64,000 nucleotides of DNA from Candidatus Gastranaerophilales bacterium (GTDB taxonomy: Bacteria; Cyanobacteriota; Vampirovibrionia; Gastranaerophilales; Gastranaerophilaceae): assembly GCA_944326585.1 (NCBI GenBank), contig CALVEN010000006.1, forward strand, positions 1 to 64,000, read 5' to 3'. Shown one piece after another: positions 6,585-53,249 of the stretch. A program made the translations under genes and the position numbers. Each line of letters starts with the position of its first letter. Within the stretch, counting starts at the first letter, position 1. The notes below the pieces were generated by a model, which did not search any database, was not told the DNA's origin, and saw nothing but the letters and a program-made list of their open reading frames with translations.

Positions 6585-6720
6585 GTCATCCTGAGGCGAA
6601 GCCGAAGGATCTCAAATAACCGGGAGATTCTTCGCTCACGCTCAGAATGACAAATGCAGGTCTGATTATCAGACAGTAAATTCTTAGTATCTTACTGCCT
6701 TAGTATCTTAGTAACTTCTT
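6585..6720. repeat. Intergenic repeat block: TCATCCTGAGG/CTCAGAATGA hairpin and TTAGTATCTTAG runs
   Basis: The block holds GTCATCCTGAGGCGAAGCC, GAAGGATCTC and GAGATTCTTCGCTCACGCTC. Its halves form an imperfect inverted repeat. GGTCTGATTATCAGACAGT and tandem CTTAGTATCTTA words follow. The same modules recur at 11.1, 38.2, 40.1-40.4, 44.8, 45.7, 52.8-53.2 and 60.8 kb. Confidence 0.8.
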
Positions 6721-7304: not shown

Positions 7305-9167
7305 ATGGAAACAAAAAGCTTAAGTATAGATATAAAAGAAGAACAGCAAAAAGCACAGGAAAAAATACGTGAACAGGGTCTGAGGGTTCTTGTCTGCGCA
7401 GGAACAGGCTGCGTTGCAAACGGGGCTTTAGGTGTAATCGAAAGATTCAAAGAACTGGGCGCTGACGTATCAGTTTTGACGGATTACGATAAAATGACAA
7501 TAGTTCCGACCGGATGCCACGGATTTTGCGAACAGGGCGTTCTGGTAAGCATTCCCGACAAGCACGTAACCTATGTTAAAGTCCGCTACAAAGACGTTGA
7601 AGAAATTTACGAAACCCACATAAGAGGCGGACAGCCGGTTGAAAGACTTTTATACACGGATCCGCAGACAAAAGAACATATTTTCAAAGACGAAGATATT
7701 AATTTTTACGCAAAACAAAACCGCACCGCGCTTAAAAACTGCGGAAACATAAACGCGGAAAGTATTGACGAAGCAATTGCGGTGAGAGGTTACGAGGCAC
7801 TATATAACGTATTGACCGAAAATAACCCCGAAGGCGTAATTGAAACAATTGAAAAATCAGGCTTAAGAGGCAGAGGGGGCGGCGGTTTCCCGACCGGAAG
7901 GAAATGGCGCTTTACGGCAGCCAACCGCGGCGGAAAATCCTACGTGGTATGTAACGGTGATGAAGGCGACCCGGGCGCATTCATGGACAGAAGTATTATG
8001 GAAGGCGATCCGCATAAACTTCTTGAAGGTATGGCAATTGCAGCTTTTGCAATCGGCGCGGACGAAGGTTATATCTACGTAAGAGCCGAATACCCGCTTG
8101 CGATTGAACGTCTGAAAAAAGCAATAAAAGACGCCGAAGAAAGACATTTTTTGGGCGAAAACATAATGGGAAGCGGTTTTTCATTCACCATTCACATAAA
8201 AGAAGGCGCCGGAGCATTTGTTTGCGGCGAAGAAACCGCACTCATAGCATCAATAGAAGGCGAACGCGGAATGCCCAGACCAAAACCGCCGTTCCCTGCA
8301 AATAAAGGTTTGTTCGGCAGACCGACATTGATTAACAACGTTGAAACACTTGCAAACGTGCCTGTTATAATGCTTAACGGCGCTGACTGGTTTGCACAAA
8401 TGGGTACCGAAACTTCTAAAGGCACCAAAACATTTGCACTGACAGGTGAAGTTAATAATACGGGCTTAATCGAAGTTCCGATGGGAACAACGTTAAGACA
8501 AATCATCTTTGACATAGGCGGCGGAATAAGAGGCGGCAAAAAATTCAAAGCTGTCCAAATCGGCGGCCCGTCAGGCGGATGTTTAACCGAAGAACATCTT
8601 GATTTGCCTATGGATTACGACAGTCTTATAAAAGCAGGCGCAATGGTCGGCTCAGGCGGTCTGGTCGTAATGGCGGAAGATACCTGTATGGTTGAAGTTG
8701 CAAGATTTTTCATGAACTTTACCAAAAACGAAAGCTGCGGGAAATGCGTTCCCTGCCGCGAAGGTACAAAAAACATGCTCAAAATCCTTGAAAAAATAGT
8801 TGCGGGAAAAGGCGAACTTTCGGATTTGGATTTGCTGGAAGAATTGGCACACACTGTTAAAGAAGGTTCATTGTGCGGGCTTGGAAAAACAGCTCCGAAC
8901 CCTGTTTTGTCAACCTTAAAATACTTCAGGGACGAATATATAGCACACATTGTCGATAAAAAATGCCCTGCAGGGGTTTGTACGGCAATGAAAAAGGTTG
9001 TTATCAACCCCGAAAAATGTAAAGGATGCACAAAATGTGCAAGAACCTGTCCTGTAGGCGCTATTGAAGGCACGGTAAAACAACCGCACCACATAGATCA
9101 GGAAAAATGTATTAAATGCGAGGCATGCCTCAAGAGCTGCCCGTTTAAGGCAATTGAATTACAATAG
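7305..9167 (+). CDS. hydB: [FeFe] hydrogenase flavin subunit, NuoF-like HydB/HndC
   Basis: HydB binds FMN and NAD(P) and passes electrons between pyridine nucleotide, ferredoxin and the HydA subunit. The 620 residues contain, in order, a thioredoxin-like [2Fe-2S] domain (Cys31, 36, 71, 75), a NuoF core with GLRGRGGGGFPTGRKW and GDEGDPGAFMDR, the SLBB region, and an N3-type cluster motif ESCGKCVPCREG. A C-terminal di-cluster ferredoxin domain (two CxxCxxCxxxC motifs in the last 55 residues) ends it. This architecture is that of HydB in electron-bifurcating hydrogenases. Bifurcation itself is inference. Confidence 0.92.
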   Translation: METKSLSIDIKEEQQKAQEKIREQGLRVLVCAGTGCVANGALGVIERFKELGADVSVLTDYDKMTIVPTGCHGFCEQGVLVSIPDKHVTYVKVRYKDVEEIYETHIRGGQPVERLLYTDPQTKEHIFKDEDINFYAKQNRTALKNCGNINAESIDEAIAVRGYEALYNVLTENNPEGVIETIEKSGLRGRGGGGFPTGRKWRFTAANRGGKSYVVCNGDEGDPGAFMDRSIMEGDPHKLLEGMAIAAFAIGADEGYIYVRAEYPLAIERLKKAIKDAEERHFLGENIMGSGFSFTIHIKEGAGAFVCGEETALIASIEGERGMPRPKPPFPANKGLFGRPTLINNVETLANVPVIMLNGADWFAQMGTETSKGTKTFALTGEVNNTGLIEVPMGTTLRQIIFDIGGGIRGGKKFKAVQIGGPSGGCLTEEHLDLPMDYDSLIKAGAMVGSGGLVVMAEDTCMVEVARFFMNFTKNESCGKCVPCREGTKNMLKILEKIVAGKGELSDLDLLEELAHTVKEGSLCGLGKTAPNPVLSTLKYFRDEYIAHIVDKKCPAGVCTAMKKVVINPEKCKGCTKCARTCPVGAIEGTVKQPHHIDQEKCIKCEACLKSCPFKAIELQ

Positions 9168-9195
9168 TGCGGAATAATTTACGAGGAAAATAGAA

Positions 9196-10944
9196 ATGAC
9201 AGATAAGAAAACATTATTTATAGACGGTAAAGAAGTAGAATTCACGGATGAACCGAATTTATTGGAAGTAATCCGAAAAGCGGGAATGAATGTTCCGACA
9301 TTCTGCTATCGCCCTGATTTAACCTCATTCGGCGCATGCAGAATGTGTGTTGTGGAAGTAGAAGGCAGAGGAATACAATCCTCCTGCACAATGCCGCCGG
9401 AAGCGGGTTTAAAAATTCATATTAATACCGAAAAGACCAGAAGAATAAGGAAAACAGTTCTGGAATTATTGCTGGCAAACCACGACAGAAGCTGTTTGAC
9501 CTGCGAAAAATCAGGTGACTGCGAACTTCAAAAATACGCTGAAGAATACGGAATTACAAAAATCAGATATGCCGAAAAAGAGGATTACCTGCCGATAGAC
9601 GACAGCTCCCCCTCAATAGTCAGAGATCCGAACAAATGTATTTTGTGCGGTGCGTGCGTAAGAGCCTGCTCTGAATTTCAGGGGCATTCTGTACTGGGTT
9701 TTGCCAACAGAGGCTCAAAAACAGTCGTAGAGCCAATGAACGGCAGACCGCTCGGACAGGTTGACTGTGTAAACTGCGGACAATGCGTTGCGGTTTGCCC
9801 GACAGGAGCATTAACGATTAAATCATCACTGGATGATGTCTGGGCAAGGATTACAAACCCGGAGGTGAAAGTTATCGCGCATATGGCACCGTCAGTCAGA
9901 GTTGCACTGGGCGAAATGTTCGGACTTGAACCCGGTGAAAACACTATCGGAAAAATTGATGCTGCGCTCAGAAGAATAGGTTTTGACATGGTATTTGATA
10001 CCAATTTCGGGGCGGACTTAACGATTATGGAAGAAGCAACGGAATTTATAGACAGACTTAAATCAGGTCAAAATCTTCCGTTATTTACATCTTGTTGTCC
10101 TGCGTGGGTTAAGTATCTTGAGATGATGCACCCTGATATGCTTAATCATCTTTCAAGCTGCAAATCACCTATGTCAATGCAGTCGCCGGTTCTGGTCGAT
10201 TTAATTCCGAAAATGCTGGGAATTCCGCGCGAAAACTTGACGGTCGTTGCAATAATGCCGTGTACAGCGAAAAAATATGAAGCCTTGCGCCCTGAATTAA
10301 GCCAAAACGGACGTCAGGACACGGATTTTGTACTTACGACAAAAGAACTCGGCAAAATGATAAAGAGTGCGGGAATTGATTTTAATTCGCTGGAACCCGA
10401 AGCACCTGATTCACCGTTCGGGGAATATACAGGTGCCGGAACAATATTCGGCGCATCCGGCGGGGTTGCGGAAGCAGCTGTCAGAACGGCTTATGAATTT
10501 GCAACCGGCGAAGTTCTCCAAAACGTTGATATCAAAGAAATGCGCGGCACAACAAACAGGTGCAAAGATGTTGAAATCGACATCAAAGGCACAAAAGTTG
10601 TCGTAAGGGTAGTGTCAACGCTTAAAGAGGCTGAAAAATCAATTAAAGAAATCAAAGAAGGAAAAGCACAATTCCAGATGCTTGAAGTTATGGCATGCCC
10701 GGGAGGCTGCATAAACGGCGGCGGACAACCCGCAAGCTTTAATGACAGCAAAATCAAGCAGGAACGCGCAGAAGGATTATACAAAGAGGACGAACAGCTT
10801 CCTATACGTAAATCGCATATGAATCCTTCAGTTCAAAAACTTTATCAGGAATTTTTGGAACATCCGAATTCACATAAGGCGCACGAAATCCTGCATACCG
10901 TATACACGGACAGATTCGCGGGGTCATATAAAGATATTAAGTAA
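9196..10944 (+). CDS. hydA: [FeFe] hydrogenase catalytic subunit HydA
   Basis: HydA reduces protons to H2 (or the reverse) at the H-cluster. The 582 residues carry an N-terminal [2Fe-2S] domain (Cys37, 48, 51, 64), the His-Cys3 cluster (His96, Cys100, 103, 109) and two [4Fe-4S] ferredoxin clusters (Cys148-158 and 191-201). The three H-cluster signatures are TSCCPAW (Cys300/301), MPCTAKKYE (Cys356) and EVMACPGGCINGGGQP (Cys501/505). All metal ligands and the proton-transfer cysteine are present, so it should be active. The maturases HydE, HydF and HydG are not in the window. GAGGAAAATAGAA precedes the ATG, and a strong terminator follows. Confidence 0.96.
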   Translation: MTDKKTLFIDGKEVEFTDEPNLLEVIRKAGMNVPTFCYRPDLTSFGACRMCVVEVEGRGIQSSCTMPPEAGLKIHINTEKTRRIRKTVLELLLANHDRSCLTCEKSGDCELQKYAEEYGITKIRYAEKEDYLPIDDSSPSIVRDPNKCILCGACVRACSEFQGHSVLGFANRGSKTVVEPMNGRPLGQVDCVNCGQCVAVCPTGALTIKSSLDDVWARITNPEVKVIAHMAPSVRVALGEMFGLEPGENTIGKIDAALRRIGFDMVFDTNFGADLTIMEEATEFIDRLKSGQNLPLFTSCCPAWVKYLEMMHPDMLNHLSSCKSPMSMQSPVLVDLIPKMLGIPRENLTVVAIMPCTAKKYEALRPELSQNGRQDTDFVLTTKELGKMIKSAGIDFNSLEPEAPDSPFGEYTGAGTIFGASGGVAEAAVRTAYEFATGEVLQNVDIKEMRGTTNRCKDVEIDIKGTKVVVRVVSTLKEAEKSIKEIKEGKAQFQMLEVMACPGGCINGGGQPASFNDSKIKQERAEGLYKEDEQLPIRKSHMNPSVQKLYQEFLEHPNSHKAHEILHTVYTDRFAGSYKDIK

Positions 10945-11070: not shown

Positions 11071-11282
11071 ATAACACCTCACGCCACTCACACCACACAC
11101 TTTACTCACTCTAAAAACTTCTTACGGTCTTACTGTCTTAGTATCTTAGTATCTTTATCTGAGATTCTTCGCTGGCGCTCAGAATGACAAACATGGACAA
11201 ATATAGGTCTGATTAGCCGACAGTAAATCCTTAGTGCCTTACTAGTATCTTAGTAACTTTTATCAAAGATTCTAAAAAACTG
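11071..11282. repeat. Intergenic repeat block upstream of tRNA-Lys
   Basis: The gap from hydA to tRNA-Lys holds no gene. It contains CTTAGTATCTTAGTATC runs, the module GAGATTCTTCGCTGGCGCTC, a GGTCTGATTAGCCGACAGT hairpin-like word and a second TTAGTAAC run. Confidence 0.75.
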
Positions 11283-11311
11283 TTGACAAGAAAATTTGTT
11301 CTTGATAGACT
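11283..11311 (+). promoter_or_regulatory. Promoter of tRNA-Lys
   Basis: A consensus TTGACA and TAGACT are separated by 17 bases. The -10 box ends 34 bases before the mature tRNA 5' end. Confidence 0.75.
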
Positions 11312-11345
11312 AAAAACATTGACAGTCGAAATGAATAGCAAATAA

Positions 11346-11418
11346 GCGCTTGTAGCTCAGCAGGTAGAGCACTCCCCTTTTAAGGGATAGGTCGCGCGTT
11401 CGAATCGCGCCAAGCGCA
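11346..11418 (+). tRNA. tRNA-Lys(UUU)
   Basis: The cloverleaf has acceptor GCGCTTG/CAAGCGC with discriminator A, D-stem GCTC/GAGC, and anticodon stem CTCCC/GGGAT with loop CTTTTAA (anticodon TTT). The outermost anticodon-stem pair is a C-U mismatch. The T-stem is GCGCG/CGCGC. CCA is not encoded. The last 16 bases are repeated at 11627-11642. Confidence 0.95.
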
Positions 11419-11419
11419 T

Positions 11420-11456
11420 AAAAGAGAGGATAGGTTAAAACCTATCCTCTCTTTTA
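11420..11456 (+). terminator. Terminator after tRNA-Lys
   Basis: AAAGAGAGGATAGG and CCTATCCTCTCTTTT pair as a long perfect stem around a TTAAAA loop, directly after the tRNA. Confidence 0.9.
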
Positions 11457-11642
11457 TTTGTTTTGACAGGATTTGCAGAACGCGCACAAGGCGAAAGCCT
11501 TGTCAAAGCGTTCGGCGGATTTGCGGACGGACGGAATGAAATGAGTCCGGATAGCGAACGGAACGAGCCGGCATAGCCCTCAGGGCTTTGAGGCGAGTCT
11601 CCGTGAGCGTGGAGCAAATCCAAGACAATCGCGCCAAGCGCA
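11457..11642. other. Structured GC-rich element ending in a copy of the tRNA-Lys 3' end
   Basis: This stretch is GC-rich against AT-rich flanks and has no convincing gene. GGATTTGC (11469-11476) pairs with GCAAATCC (11614-11621) to close the element. Inside, GAACGC (11478-11483) pairs with GCGTTC (11508-11513) around a perfect hairpin ACAAGGC-GAAA-GCCTTGT (11486-11503). A smaller AGCCC-TCA-GGGCT hairpin is at 11575-11587. The element ends with CCAAGACAATC (11620-11630), fused to AATCGCGCCAAGCGCA (11627-11642), the exact 3' end of tRNA-Lys. The same layout recurs after tRNA-Gly(UCC). Between 11643 and 11775 the sequence is plain AT-rich leader of the Fic gene. Confidence 0.7.
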
Positions 11643-11775
11643 CAAAATTTTGTTATTTATCAGGTATGCACAATTATATTTTGTAATGACAAATTTATAA
11701 TATACATATTGATATTATAAATAAATATGTTAAAATTATAATAAGATACATTTTAGAAAAAAAAAAGAGGCATAT

Positions 11776-12957
11776 ATGAATAATTTTCAGGCAGGACACT
11801 ATGTACAATGTTCCGGATACAAAGCGTTCATACCTTCAAAAATTAATAAAGAATTCATATGTAATGATTCCAAAATACTTGCATTACTTGAAAAAGCAAG
11901 CCGTTATATAGGGGAATTAAATGCTTATTCAAAAAATTTACCTAATATATTTTTCTTTCTCAGTATGATGGCAATAGATGAAGCAACATTTTCAAACAAA
12001 ATAGAGGGTACAAGAATAACATTAAATGAAGTTGTATCTCCTGATGAAGAGATTTTGCCGGAACGCAGAGACGAAAAAACAGAAGTGTTAAATTATCTGT
12101 ATGCACTGTCGTTATCATACAAAACATTAACCGGATATGAAAACATTTTAATATCTCCTGAGAAAGCAAATGACCCTACATTACCATTTTGTACTCGCTT
12201 AATAAAGAAAGCGCACAAATATTTATTAGAGGGTTCTAGGGGTAAAGATAAACATCCCGGAGAATTCAGAAAATCACAAAACTGGATAGGCGGTACAATG
12301 CCGTCAACAGCAGCATTTGTTCCGCCACCGCCTGAGCTGTTAAATGAATTGCTGGCGGATTTTGAAAACTTCTGGCATAATGATGAGATTTATGTTCCTA
12401 TTTTAATAAAAATAGCTATCTGTCATTATCAATTTGAAACAATTCACCCATTTTTAGACGGTAATGGCAGAATAGGAAGATTAATACTGTTATTGCAGCT
12501 TGTAGACAGCGGATTATTGGAACTGCCTACACTATATCTTTCAAAATATTTTGAAAGAAACCGTAAACAATACTACGATGCACTTAGCTTAGTACGAGAA
12601 AAAAATAATATTAATCAATGGATACAATATTTTTTGGAAGGAGTCTGCGATACGGCACTGCTATCTGTAAATCTTCTTAAAGATATTGATAATCTTAACA
12701 ATGAATGCGAAGAAAAGCTCCAAGGTATTCCCCGTTCGCACATAAATGCAAACAAGTTACTCAAAAATCTATACTTATACCCGCAAACAAGTACTAACAA
12801 AATTTCAAAACAGCTTAATATAGAATACCAAAATGCTAATAATCTGCTTAAGACTTTTGTTAAACTCGGGATACTGGAAGTAAACAGTAAACGAAGGAAT
12901 AAAATATATACATTCAAAAAATACTTGGATATATTCAATAAAGCACAATTAAAATAA
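11776..12957 (+). CDS. Fic family protein (probable AMP transferase, class II autoinhibited)
   Basis: Fic enzymes usually transfer AMP from ATP to target proteins. The 393-residue protein has the catalytic motif HPFLDGNGRIGR (His224 onward). An N-terminal helix carries SNKIEG (Ser73-Gly78), which matches the inhibitory motif [S/T]xxxE[G/N] of class II Fic proteins, so no separate antitoxin is needed. The last ~90 residues look like a winged-helix domain (KISKQLNIEYQNANNLLKTFVKLGILE). AAAGAGG lies before the ATG. The gene is AT-richer than its neighbours and sits next to the tRNA-Lys 3'-end duplication, which suggests acquisition by transfer. The target protein is not predictable here. Confidence 0.88.
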   Translation: MNNFQAGHYVQCSGYKAFIPSKINKEFICNDSKILALLEKASRYIGELNAYSKNLPNIFFFLSMMAIDEATFSNKIEGTRITLNEVVSPDEEILPERRDEKTEVLNYLYALSLSYKTLTGYENILISPEKANDPTLPFCTRLIKKAHKYLLEGSRGKDKHPGEFRKSQNWIGGTMPSTAAFVPPPPELLNELLADFENFWHNDEIYVPILIKIAICHYQFETIHPFLDGNGRIGRLILLLQLVDSGLLELPTLYLSKYFERNRKQYYDALSLVREKNNINQWIQYFLEGVCDTALLSVNLLKDIDNLNNECEEKLQGIPRSHINANKLLKNLYLYPQTSTNKISKQLNIEYQNANNLLKTFVKLGILEVNSKRRNKIYTFKKYLDIFNKAQLK

Positions 12958-34801: not shown

Positions 34802-35005
34802 ATATACTCCTTTATAAGACGATATTTTGATTAAAGTCGTTAAGTTATTAAGACGTTAAGTTCTTTAATAAAAGCTTTTTTGACAAAAATATGTTAAGAC
34901 TGATTGATGAAACTCTAAACCTCCAGCCTCAGCTCGTTCGCGCTCGAACCTGAGACAAAGCTTCGCTTTGCGGTTCTCGTCCGCCGATATTCTGTTTTCA
35001 ACAAA
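34802..35005. other. Structured region downstream of tRNA-Gly(CCC)
   Basis: No gene is seen. Read beside the tRNA (minus strand), the region holds a GAACCGC..GGTTC outer arm with a CAAAGC-GAA-GCTTTG inner hairpin (about 34953-34975). On the plus strand, CTCAG/CTGAG (34926-34952) encloses GTTCG-CGCT-CGAAC. These resemble hairpins in the elements after tRNA-Lys and tRNA-Gly(UCC). Here no clear copy of the tRNA 3' end was found. Confidence 0.55.
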
Positions 35006-35077
35006 AGCGGAAGACGGGACTCGAACCCGCGACGTCAACCTTGGGAAGGTTGCATTCTACCACTGAATTACTTCCGC
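35006..35077 (-). tRNA. tRNA-Gly(CCC)
   Basis: On the minus strand: acceptor GCGGAAG/CTTCCGC, D-stem ATTC/GAAT, anticodon stem CAACC/GGTTG with loop TTCCCAA (anticodon CCC), and T-stem GCGGG/CCCGT with loop TTCGAGT. CCA is not encoded. Confidence 0.94.
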
Positions 35078-40114: not shown

Positions 40115-40325
40115 AAAAAAATCCAGTATGACGCAAGACATGTCATCCTGAGGCTTTAGCCGAAGGATCTCTTTGCACCTTCTCACGCCACTCACTTCAC
40201 TCACTCTAAACCTTCTTAGTATCTTAGTAACTTTATCGAGATTCTTCGCTGGCGCTCAGAATGACGCTGCAGAGATCCCGCAACAAGTGCGGGATGACGA
40301 ATTGACATTGTTAGGTTGAGCATAT
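40115..40325. repeat. Intergenic repeat block between two dispersed elements
   Basis: TGTCATCCTGAGGCTTTAGC with GAAGGATCTC, a TTAGTATCTTAG run, GAGATTCTTCGCTGGCGCTC and AGATCCCGCAACAAGTGCGG modules follow one another. No gene is seen. Confidence 0.75.
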
Positions 40326-44742: not shown

Positions 44743-45017
44743 TATTTGAAATCTGTCGGCGAAGTCATCACGTGTTTCAGCAGCTCACGTCATCCTGAGG
44801 CGAAGCCGAAGGATCTCAAGAGATTCTTCGCTAACGCTCAGAATGACAATTTTCAGGGCATACTCGCGCTCAAGTTATCACAATGACGATACTTAGCACC
44901 AGCACGACAAATAACGCTTATTCAATTAAGCGTATATCAAACACTTTTTACTCTCTACACATTCCTAATTGGCGCCGGAACAACGCCGGTAATTTTACGT
45001 CTTTACTTTTAGAAGTT
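44743..45017. repeat. Intergenic repeats after nupC
   Basis: The region holds CTCACGTCATCCTGAGGCGA with GAAGGATCTC and GAGATTCTTCGCTAACGCTC near 44790-44850. AT-rich sequence follows, up to the microprotein gene. GGCGCCGG and CGCCGG words lie at 44974-44992. No other gene is seen. Confidence 0.6.
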
Positions 45018-45634: not shown

Positions 45635-45909
45635 ATAAAACCTCACACCACTCACTCTAAAAACTTCTTAGTATCTTAGTAACTTTATCTGAGATTCTTC
45701 GCTAACGCTCAGAATGACTGAGTGCTGTCGTGGCTTTGGCACCCCTCTCAATGACCTGAATAGGTAAACCAAAATTGTCAAACATGATGTAGTGCCTTTG
45801 GCACCCCTCTCCCTGCGGGAGAGGGGTAGGGGAGAGGGGGCTAAGATCCCGCAACACCTACCGGCTACGCCGACGGATGCAGGCTCACACAACTCACTCC
45901 AAAACCTTC
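45635..45909. repeat. Intergenic repeat block before the bioA 3' end
   Basis: CTTAGTATCTTAGTAAC, GAGATTCTTCGCTAACGCTC and two GCACCCCTCTCCCTGCGGG / GGGGTAGGGGAGAGGGG modules. AGATCCCGCAAC, GGCTACGCCGACGGATGCAG and a final TTACTGCCTTAGTATCTTAG run follow. That run is the 3' end of bioA. No gene is seen. Confidence 0.75.
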
Positions 45910-52097: not shown

Positions 52098-52337
52098 ATT
52101 ATTACCTCCTTAAGTCTGATTTTTTGCAGAAAATAATTTTGTTTTTCGGGTAAATAATCCCCCCGACGGAGTTATTTTATTAGCGGAAGACGGGATTGTC
52201 TTGGTCTTGCTCGCGATTAACGGGTCTTCGGACTTTCTTTTTGTCGGCGTTACCGCCTTAAAAAAGAAAGCTCCTGCGCCCTCAGCTCGCAGACCGCTCG
52301 AACTCGATATAGAGTTCTCATCTATGTCATTCCTAAT
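52098..52337. other. Structured element downstream of tRNA-Gly(UCC), ending in a copy of the tRNA 3' end
   Basis: Read beside the tRNA on the minus strand, the order is terminator, hairpins, CCAAGACAATC (52194-52204) and then CCCGTCTTCCGCTAATA (about 52178-52194). The last is a near-copy of the tRNA-Gly 3' end and its flank (compare 52360-52379, one mismatch). Hairpins include a 10-bp CTTTCTTTTT/AAAAAGAAAG stem (52233-52242 with 52262-52271), which encloses GGCG-TTAC-CGCC. AACTC-GATATA-GAGTT is at about 52301-52316. CTCAGCTCGCAGACCGCTCG (52281-52300) resembles the same position after tRNA-Gly(CCC). No gene is seen. Confidence 0.7.
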
Positions 52338-52360
52338 AAAAAAGCCTTTGAGGCTTTTTT
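52338..52360 (-). terminator. Terminator after tRNA-Gly(UCC)
   Basis: AAAAAAGCC-TTTGA-GGCTTTTTT, symmetric. It lies 3 bases past the tRNA 3' end. Confidence 0.88.
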
Positions 52361-52363
52361 ATT

Positions 52364-52435
52364 AGCGGAAGACGAGATTCGAACTCGCAACAACCTGCTT
52401 GGAAGGCAGGGACTCTACCATTGAGTTACTTCCGC
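52364..52435 (-). tRNA. tRNA-Gly(UCC)
   Basis: On the minus strand: acceptor GCGGAAG/CTTCCGC, D-stem ACTC/GAGT, anticodon stem CCTGC/GCAGG with loop CTTCCAA (anticodon TCC), and T-stem GCGAG/CTCGT with loop TTCGAAT. CCA is not encoded. Confidence 0.94.
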
Positions 52436-52816: not shown

Positions 52817-53249
52817 CAAAAAATTCAGTATGACGCGAGATATGTCATCCTGAGGCTTTAGCCGAAGGATCTCTTTGCCCCTCACCCCAAACCCCGCGGG
52901 AGAGGGCAGTAATTAGATCCCGCAACAAGTGCGGGATGACGAATTAAGTAAATCCTTAGTATTTTAATAACTTTATCGAGATTCTTCGCTGGCGCTCAGA
53001 ATGACGCTGCAGAGATCCCGCAACACCTACCGTCTACGCCGACGGATGCAGGCTCACACAACTCGTTCCTGTTCGCTTTGCAAAGTGCGGGATGACGAAT
53101 TAAGTGAATTTTTAGTATCTTAGTAACTTTATCGAGATTCTTCGCTGGCGCTCAGAATGACTGAGTGCTGTCCCGGGCAGTTCAGGATGACATAAAACCT
53201 CACACCGCTCACTTCACTCACTCTAAAAACTTCTTAGTATCTTAGTAAC
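52817..53249. repeat. Repeat mosaic before the M16 peptidase 3' end
   Basis: TGTCATCCTGAGGCTTTAGC, CCCCGCGGGAGAGGG, AGATCCCGCAACAAGTGCGG, three TTAGTATCTTAG/TTAGTATTTTAA-type runs and two GAGATTCTTCGCTGGCGCTC copies. CTACGCCGACGGATGCAGG also occurs. No gene is seen. The last TTAGTAACTTA run abuts the peptidase stop codon. Confidence 0.8.

Follow-up and report, generated by a model that had tools for sequence, protein, structure and literature searches.

The analyzed window, a 64,000-nucleotide stretch of a contig from Candidatus Gastranaerophilales bacterium, contains an intact tRNA-Lys(UUU) gene (positions 11346–11418, + strand), identified by both ARAGORN and Rfam. The initial annotation had reported an exact downstream copy of the 3′ end of this gene, and sequence comparison confirmed it: the 16-nt sequence AATCGCGCCAAGCGCA at 11403–11418 (+ strand), which is the tRNA 3′ end from the T-loop onward, is identical to that at 11627–11642 (+ strand). 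The repeat extends to 21 nt if one mismatch is allowed, and the spacing of the two copies is 224. We estimate (4^-16 per position) that a particular 16-mer would reappear by chance over such a short distance, a few hundred bases, with a probability of approximately 1e-7.

The terminator described between the two copies is borne out by an 18-bp stem followed by T at 11418–11457 (+ strand). This intrinsic terminator is carried by the inserted unit; at the empty tRNA-Lys sites of relatives only a short T-run is found in its place. The GC-rich segment that follows was also correctly recognized as folded: its predicted folding energy is -77.4 kcal/mol (z = -5.2), which was equaled by none of 200 shuffled sequences. 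Both strands of the proposed closing pair, GGATTTGC and GCAAATCC, are found in the segment, as are the nested GAACGC..GCGTTC and ACAAGGC-GAAA-GCCTTGT structures. GGATTTGC is present twice on the left side (starting at 11469 and 11517), and either copy is therefore able to pair with GCAAATCC at 11614; the pairing conserved across relatives is that of 11517–11524 with 11614–11621. The first copy (11469–11476, + strand), a duplicate of the 5′ closing strand of the core, matches the end of the core, so that the computed fold of the segment closes there.

The next part of the interval is the left arm (11478–11513, + strand), composed of GAACGCGC, the hairpin ACAAGGC-GAAA-GCCTTGT and GCGTTC. The first of these sequences is the reverse complement of the 5′ half of the tRNA-Lys T-arm, GCGCGTTC (11394–11401), and the GCGTTC closing the arm is a direct copy of that half. 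It is followed by a core, referred to below as type A (11516–11626, + strand), with an outer stem (11517–11524/11614–11621), an inner hairpin, a branched stem and the tail AAGAC. The right copy of the tRNA 3′ end directly adjoins this tail and is read as the original tRNA-Lys 3′ end displaced by the insertion. Promoter-like matches within 11250–11800 were no more numerous than in shuffled sequences. An Rfam scan of the window for known RNAs yielded only tRNAs at the gathering threshold, and the sub-threshold matches at the tRNA-Lys locus were to unrelated families.

Searches of related genomes revealed that the interval matches many places, chiefly through one core of about 111 nt corresponding to window positions 11516–11626. 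A covariance model of this core (R1), built from 23 sequences including that of the window, recognized the window copy with 116.5 bits (E = 2e-29). Among 73 distinct core A sequences, 98.3% of the paired cells were standard pairs, and double changes were counted in 314 cells, as against 82 in shuffled controls and no more than 51 in slid ones, although these sequences are related and the cells do not count as independent events. Non-standard cells were far more often G-U than A-C in core A (38 versus 9; p = 2.5e-5), and likewise in the type B core described below (42 versus 9). In core A, this excess points to the + strand as the folded strand, and to RNA rather than DNA.

Core A was identified with R1 in 94 of the 146 sampled Gastranaerophilales genomes, nearly all of them belonging to the same family as the window, and the copy number reaches at least 26 per genome, with several genomes containing from 22 to at least 26 copies. 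Where named, the public contigs bearing the 3′ end of the core are nearly all from Candidatus Gastranaerophilales or gut bacteria, and the host of the window is accordingly taken to be a gut member of this order. In searches with R1 and the type B model R2, units were missing from some of the nearly complete genomes of the family.

At the tRNA-Lys site itself, relatives display several states: (i) empty sites, where nothing but a T-run follows the tRNA (G006, G014, G021, G022, G023 and others), (ii) single units with a type B core (G011, G001, G010 and G016), (iii) single units with a third kind of core (G009 and G012) and (iv) tandem pairs with the tRNA 3′ end after each unit (G013 and G002). 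Where a unit is present, the T-run native to the site usually comes after the right-hand copy, and it is the unit that supplies the terminator behind the tRNA. As judged by sequence, this pattern is the expected remnant of an insertion that restores the tRNA. The initial annotation had considered mobility or RNA function unlikely if all relatives carried the interval, with no empty site and no covariation; empty tRNA-Lys sites do exist, and the fold of core A covaries strongly. The tRNA-Lys interval is a 224-base non-coding cassette and not a one-off relic.

The same order of parts was found in units at Leu, Asp, Gly, Asn, Ser, Val, Ile and other tRNAs. In the 5′ part, a terminator is followed by a complement of the 3′ half of the T-arm, GAG, a complement of the 5′ half of the T-arm and, often, a hairpin; in the 3′ part, the T-arm 5′ half is repeated in direct orientation, with GTTCGAG at its end, and is followed by the core, AAGAC, and the T-arm 3′ half with the acceptor end. 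The complementary stretch of the left arm fits the 3′ half of its own tRNA better than those of other tRNAs (permutation p = 2e-4; n = 15 tRNA types, including enterobacterial Tyr and Pro, with one representative unit each), but these units were hand-picked and several are decayed, so this result is supportive rather than decisive. In the window unit, this matching is confined to the 5′-half arm: GGATTTGC at 11469–11476 replaces the stretch that is complementary, in other units, to the T-arm 3′ half, and it pairs with the end of the core instead.

Core A was observed in 107 distinct insertion contexts, of which 49 are T-loop-like and 58 are not. The preceding base is G in 106 of these contexts and the following base is A in 87. 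No consistent target-site duplication was seen, with unit boundaries uncertain by 1–2 nt.

A second covariance model (R2), constructed from 21 type B units with E. coli excluded, showed compensatory change in 23 of 33 pairs. Type B units share the layout of type A units; R2 matches were detected in 91 of 117 genomes, and the genome from which the window derives has 19 matches, two of which lie behind tRNA-Gly genes of the window. A complete type B unit (52175–52363, - strand; R2 match at 52189–52328, E = 2.5e-26; one of the 21 training sequences) lies behind tRNA-Gly(TCC) (52364–52435), in the order terminator, left arm, core and copy of the tRNA-Gly 3′ end. A truncated unit (34852–35005, - strand; R2 match at 34852–34987, E = 2.9e-4) lies behind tRNA-Gly(CCC) (35006–35077). 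Together with the tRNA-Lys unit, units are therefore present behind three of the window's five tRNA genes.

Core A is also present away from tRNAs, within dispersed REP-like repeats, at gene ends, at a gene start and on phage contigs. In genome G029, a dispersed palindromic repeat accommodates at least 13 near-identical cores, which lie between CCTGAACTT and GTTTCAGG. Other copies are placed at the stop codon of an EF-P-like gene (L031; gene named by eye) and at the start of a gene (L019). On one of the two phage contigs (L199 and L200), within the region 3741–3990 of L199, a tail-tube gene is broken near codon 9 by the core, behind which a second, synonymously diverged gene start is found, i.e. 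the 5′ end of the tail-tube gene has been duplicated. This arrangement mirrors that at the tRNAs. The same contig carries two additional, weaker core matches, arranged in tandem at 8989–9201. The first impression gained from the G029 repeats, that of a general preference for hairpin loops, was not borne out overall: the 58 non-tRNA contexts were palindromic no more often than random positions (p = 0.63). Likewise, horizontal spread to Bacteroidota, indicated by a contig assigned to 'Muribaculaceae' (L265), was rejected: the contig carries a cyanobacterial-looking PilT-like gene and, by visual inspection, is probably misbinned.

In two genera (L180 and L181), a HipA-like toxin gene and a gene for a 179-aa tyrosine recombinase are accompanied by core A, located 57–69 bp behind the hipA stop codon. 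The window itself contains seven copies of a REP-like repeat, GAGATTCTTCGCTNNCGCTCAGAATGAC (6624–6653, 11161–11190, 40238–40267, 44820–44849, 45691–45720, 52978–53007 and 53134–53163), and many further intergenic mosaics of 8-nt units, e.g. CTTAGTAT and CTTATTCC.

A different duplication was found at the 5′ ends of tRNA genes. The region upstream of tRNA-Pro (185–261) contains, within 66–184, a 38-nt hairpin element, ACTCTGCCGAACAAACGATTAAGTATCGTTTGTGAGAG (from position 78), by which a duplicated 5′ end of tRNA-Pro is split within the D-loop. An exact 77-nt direct repeat (1–77 and 119–195; spacing 118) covers the duplicated 5′ end and the spacer. Upstream of tRNA-Leu (L080, L095, L270 and L281) and tRNA-Ile (L336), duplicated 5′ ends are likewise split by related hairpins, some of them in tandem. 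Related hairpins also occur inside several type A and B cores (L175, L215, L216, L252, L258 and L123). These D-loop hairpins at tRNA 5′ ends are the mirror image of the T-loop units.

Units of comparable design were recognized in enterobacteria. In the tyrTV region of E. coli K-12, the tRNA-Tyr 3′ end is followed, after an intervening stretch, by GGGGAAGGAT-GAG-AAGC..., AAGGTTCGA, the core and AATCCTTCCCCCACCACCA, and this order is repeated. Two such units, each with a terminator and with arms (GAGGATGAGAACCTC and GAGGTTCGA) that fit tRNA-Pro, lie behind tRNA-Pro of Salmonella. At the E. coli tRNA-Pro locus (eptB-dppA; L347, L346 and L345), zero, one or two full RtT units are present depending on the strain, and the last, partial unit holds a REP-like palindrome (recognized by eye) in the slot of the core. 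RtT-like places were detected in 5375 of 5426 E. coli genomes (median 8). An occurrence of RtT on plasmids was rejected, as the two matches inspected proved to be chromosomal tyrTV segments. To our knowledge, RtT repeats have remained a decades-old oddity of the E. coli tyrT operon without an accepted origin; the E. coli RtT is reportedly a by-product of tRNA transcription.

Taken together, the interval is probably best explained as one of a large family of non-coding cassettes located in tRNA T-loops. The inserted unit would comprise, in this order, the tRNA 3′ end from the T-loop, the terminator, an inverted T-arm copy, a hairpin, the directly copied T-arm 5′ half and the structured core. 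It would enter tRNA-Lys between GTTCGA and ATCGCGCC; entry at this point would leave the tRNA whole and its original 3′ end as the right-hand repeat. The mobility of the units is inferred from their distribution, that is, from the footprint of insertion, and the cassette is most likely a non-autonomous element moved in trans, presumably by a recombinase. The terminator may shield the tRNA, and the folded strand may act as RNA, either during movement or, like the E. coli RtT, in the form of a by-product arising from tRNA transcription. The alternative of a short non-autonomous element, one of three offered by the initial annotation, is supported by the empty sites, the other cores at the same site, the tandem units and the multi-copy core; that of a structured RNA is supported, at the sequence level, by the covarying fold and the preference for G-U over A-C. 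Core and T-arm platform give the impression of separable modules: A, B and RtT cores as well as the REP-like palindrome of E. coli occupy one slot, and core A also occurs free of the platform. Homologous recombination between the tRNA 3′ repeats would change array length, and the E. coli tRNA-Pro arrays with zero, one or two units suggest that many tRNA units may have been inherited vertically or amplified in this manner.

The strong RNA-level covariation, the G-U bias and the same tRNA-Pro arrays would also speak for a selected, RtT-like small RNA gene residing in the tRNA tail, its useful RNA being processed from or beside the tRNA transcript and its copies spreading, without transposition, by tandem duplication and by homologous recombination between tRNA 3′ repeats. 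We regard this explanation as unlikely, because cores A also lie far from tRNAs, within REP-like repeats and phage genes and at gene ends, because different core families occupy one tRNA slot among sister species, and because units are missing from some of the family's nearly complete genomes.

Less probable still is a non-autonomous derivative of a known transposon (IS110 with its bridge RNA, IS200/605 or RAYT, a group II intron or a serine recombinase element), even though insertion without a clear target duplication, the structured ends and the location of some insertions in REP-like palindromes are compatible with such an origin. A search of 30 genomes, chosen as A-rich or A-free, for IS110, reverse transcriptase, Y1 and serine recombinases found no mobilizing enzyme; since the choice was made by type A copies only and some A-free genomes are rich in B units, the test is weaker for type B. 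The IS110 DEDD recombinase (PF01548), hinted at by the AG/CT-like borders, was detected in only one of these genomes, which has no core, and in none of the A-rich ones. Reverse transcriptase (PF00078), as expected for a group II intron or retron, is missing from eight high-copy genomes. Nor do reverse transcriptase, Y1 or serine recombinases follow copy number: they are missing from several A-rich genomes and found in some A-free ones. Short tyrosine recombinases (180 aa) encoded near HipA and the core (G013 and G138) are present in core-free genomes too, and their adjacency to the core looks incidental. Tyrosine recombinases as a whole occur in every genome tested and are therefore neither excluded nor singled out. 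None of the 326 loci examined contained an autonomous version with genes between the core ends. Of the features of terminal-inverted-repeat MITEs, the inverted core ends were found, and a constant duplication and an autonomous relative were not.

The third possibility raised by the initial annotation, an att relic, i.e. the left and right att arms of a tRNA-integrated island that together make up the 224 bp after deletion of its cargo, is very improbable. T-arm symmetry is commonly used by tyrosine recombinases, and at tRNA-Ile of G013 core A and a tRNA 3′ copy lie at the far side of a 36-kb stretch; but the interval is a standard compact unit whose conserved fold recurs at many tRNAs and in tandem, with no unique junction, and none of the 326 loci holds a longer element with genes between the core ends. 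Moreover, the true islands at tRNA-Ile (in G013 and in G124, where a serine-recombinase island precedes two tandem units) lie between the tRNA and older-looking units. At one tRNA-Ile locus (L334), two tandem units are separated from the tRNA by an adjoining 12.9-kb island that carries two large serine recombinase genes.

The cassette family favored here most closely resembles the RtT repeats. The shared plan is a unit of about 170–180 bp that lies directly behind a tRNA, has the tRNA 3′ end at both ends and is often arranged in tandem. In both, the left arm is the T-arm reverse complement, in which TGAG replaces the loop part (GGGTGAGAACC in E. coli RtT; GATGAGAACGC in tRNA-Lys type B units), followed by the T-arm 5′ half, a structured core and the T-arm 3′ half. 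The RtT arms are re-matched to each host tRNA (Tyr and Pro), as in the new units, and the tRNA-Pro arrays likewise have a terminator after each tRNA 3′ end. The T-arm copies around the core were recognized in this study and are absent from the RF00391 family description. In contrast, the sequence and fold of the cores differ, the hosts belong to different phyla and, unlike RtT, the new cores A have spread to phage contigs and dispersed repeats. The Rfam RtT model (RF00391) had no match in the window at its gathering threshold and none up to E = 5 over 11300–11750, and it gave 22.4 bits (E = 1.9; gathering score 45) for the type B unit at tRNA-Asn of the same genome. Conversely, within the tyrTV region R2 gave its top ranks to the four rtT units, though weakly (E = 0.006–0.12). 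In view of this weak ranking and of the non-acceptance by RF00391, we consider that, in sequence organization, the new units work on the RtT plan, and we do not claim them as members of RF00391.

The similarity of rtT to BIMEs has been noted earlier (PMC2965389). Like REP and BIME sequences, core A is short, structured, multi-copy and intergenic, but it is longer (111 nt), has a branched fold and does not correlate with a Y1 (RAYT-type) transposase. As in tRNA-targeting integrative elements, the tRNA 3′ end is duplicated and the tRNA gene restored; the new units differ from these in their size (about 220 bp), in having neither genes nor a linked integrase, and in forming tandem structured arrays. 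A search for mobile tRNA-tail units in the accessible literature, mostly outside subscription journals, yielded no more than mentions of RtT.

It is tempting, if speculative, to unite RtT and the Gastranaerophilales units in one widespread class of RNA-based mobile T-loop cassettes, with a mirror-image D-loop system at tRNA 5′ ends. In such a class, the carried complementary strand would recognize the T-arm, insertion into the T-loop would rebuild the tRNA, and the cores would be interchangeable. Irrespective of this, the occurrence, in a distant phylum, of the same layout splitting the T-arm, with several cores, empty sites and copies outside tRNAs, makes of the RtT oddity a class that offers a testable hypothesis, T-loop insertion with tRNA restoration. 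The enzyme, if found, would represent a new way for tiny non-coding elements to use essential genes safely.
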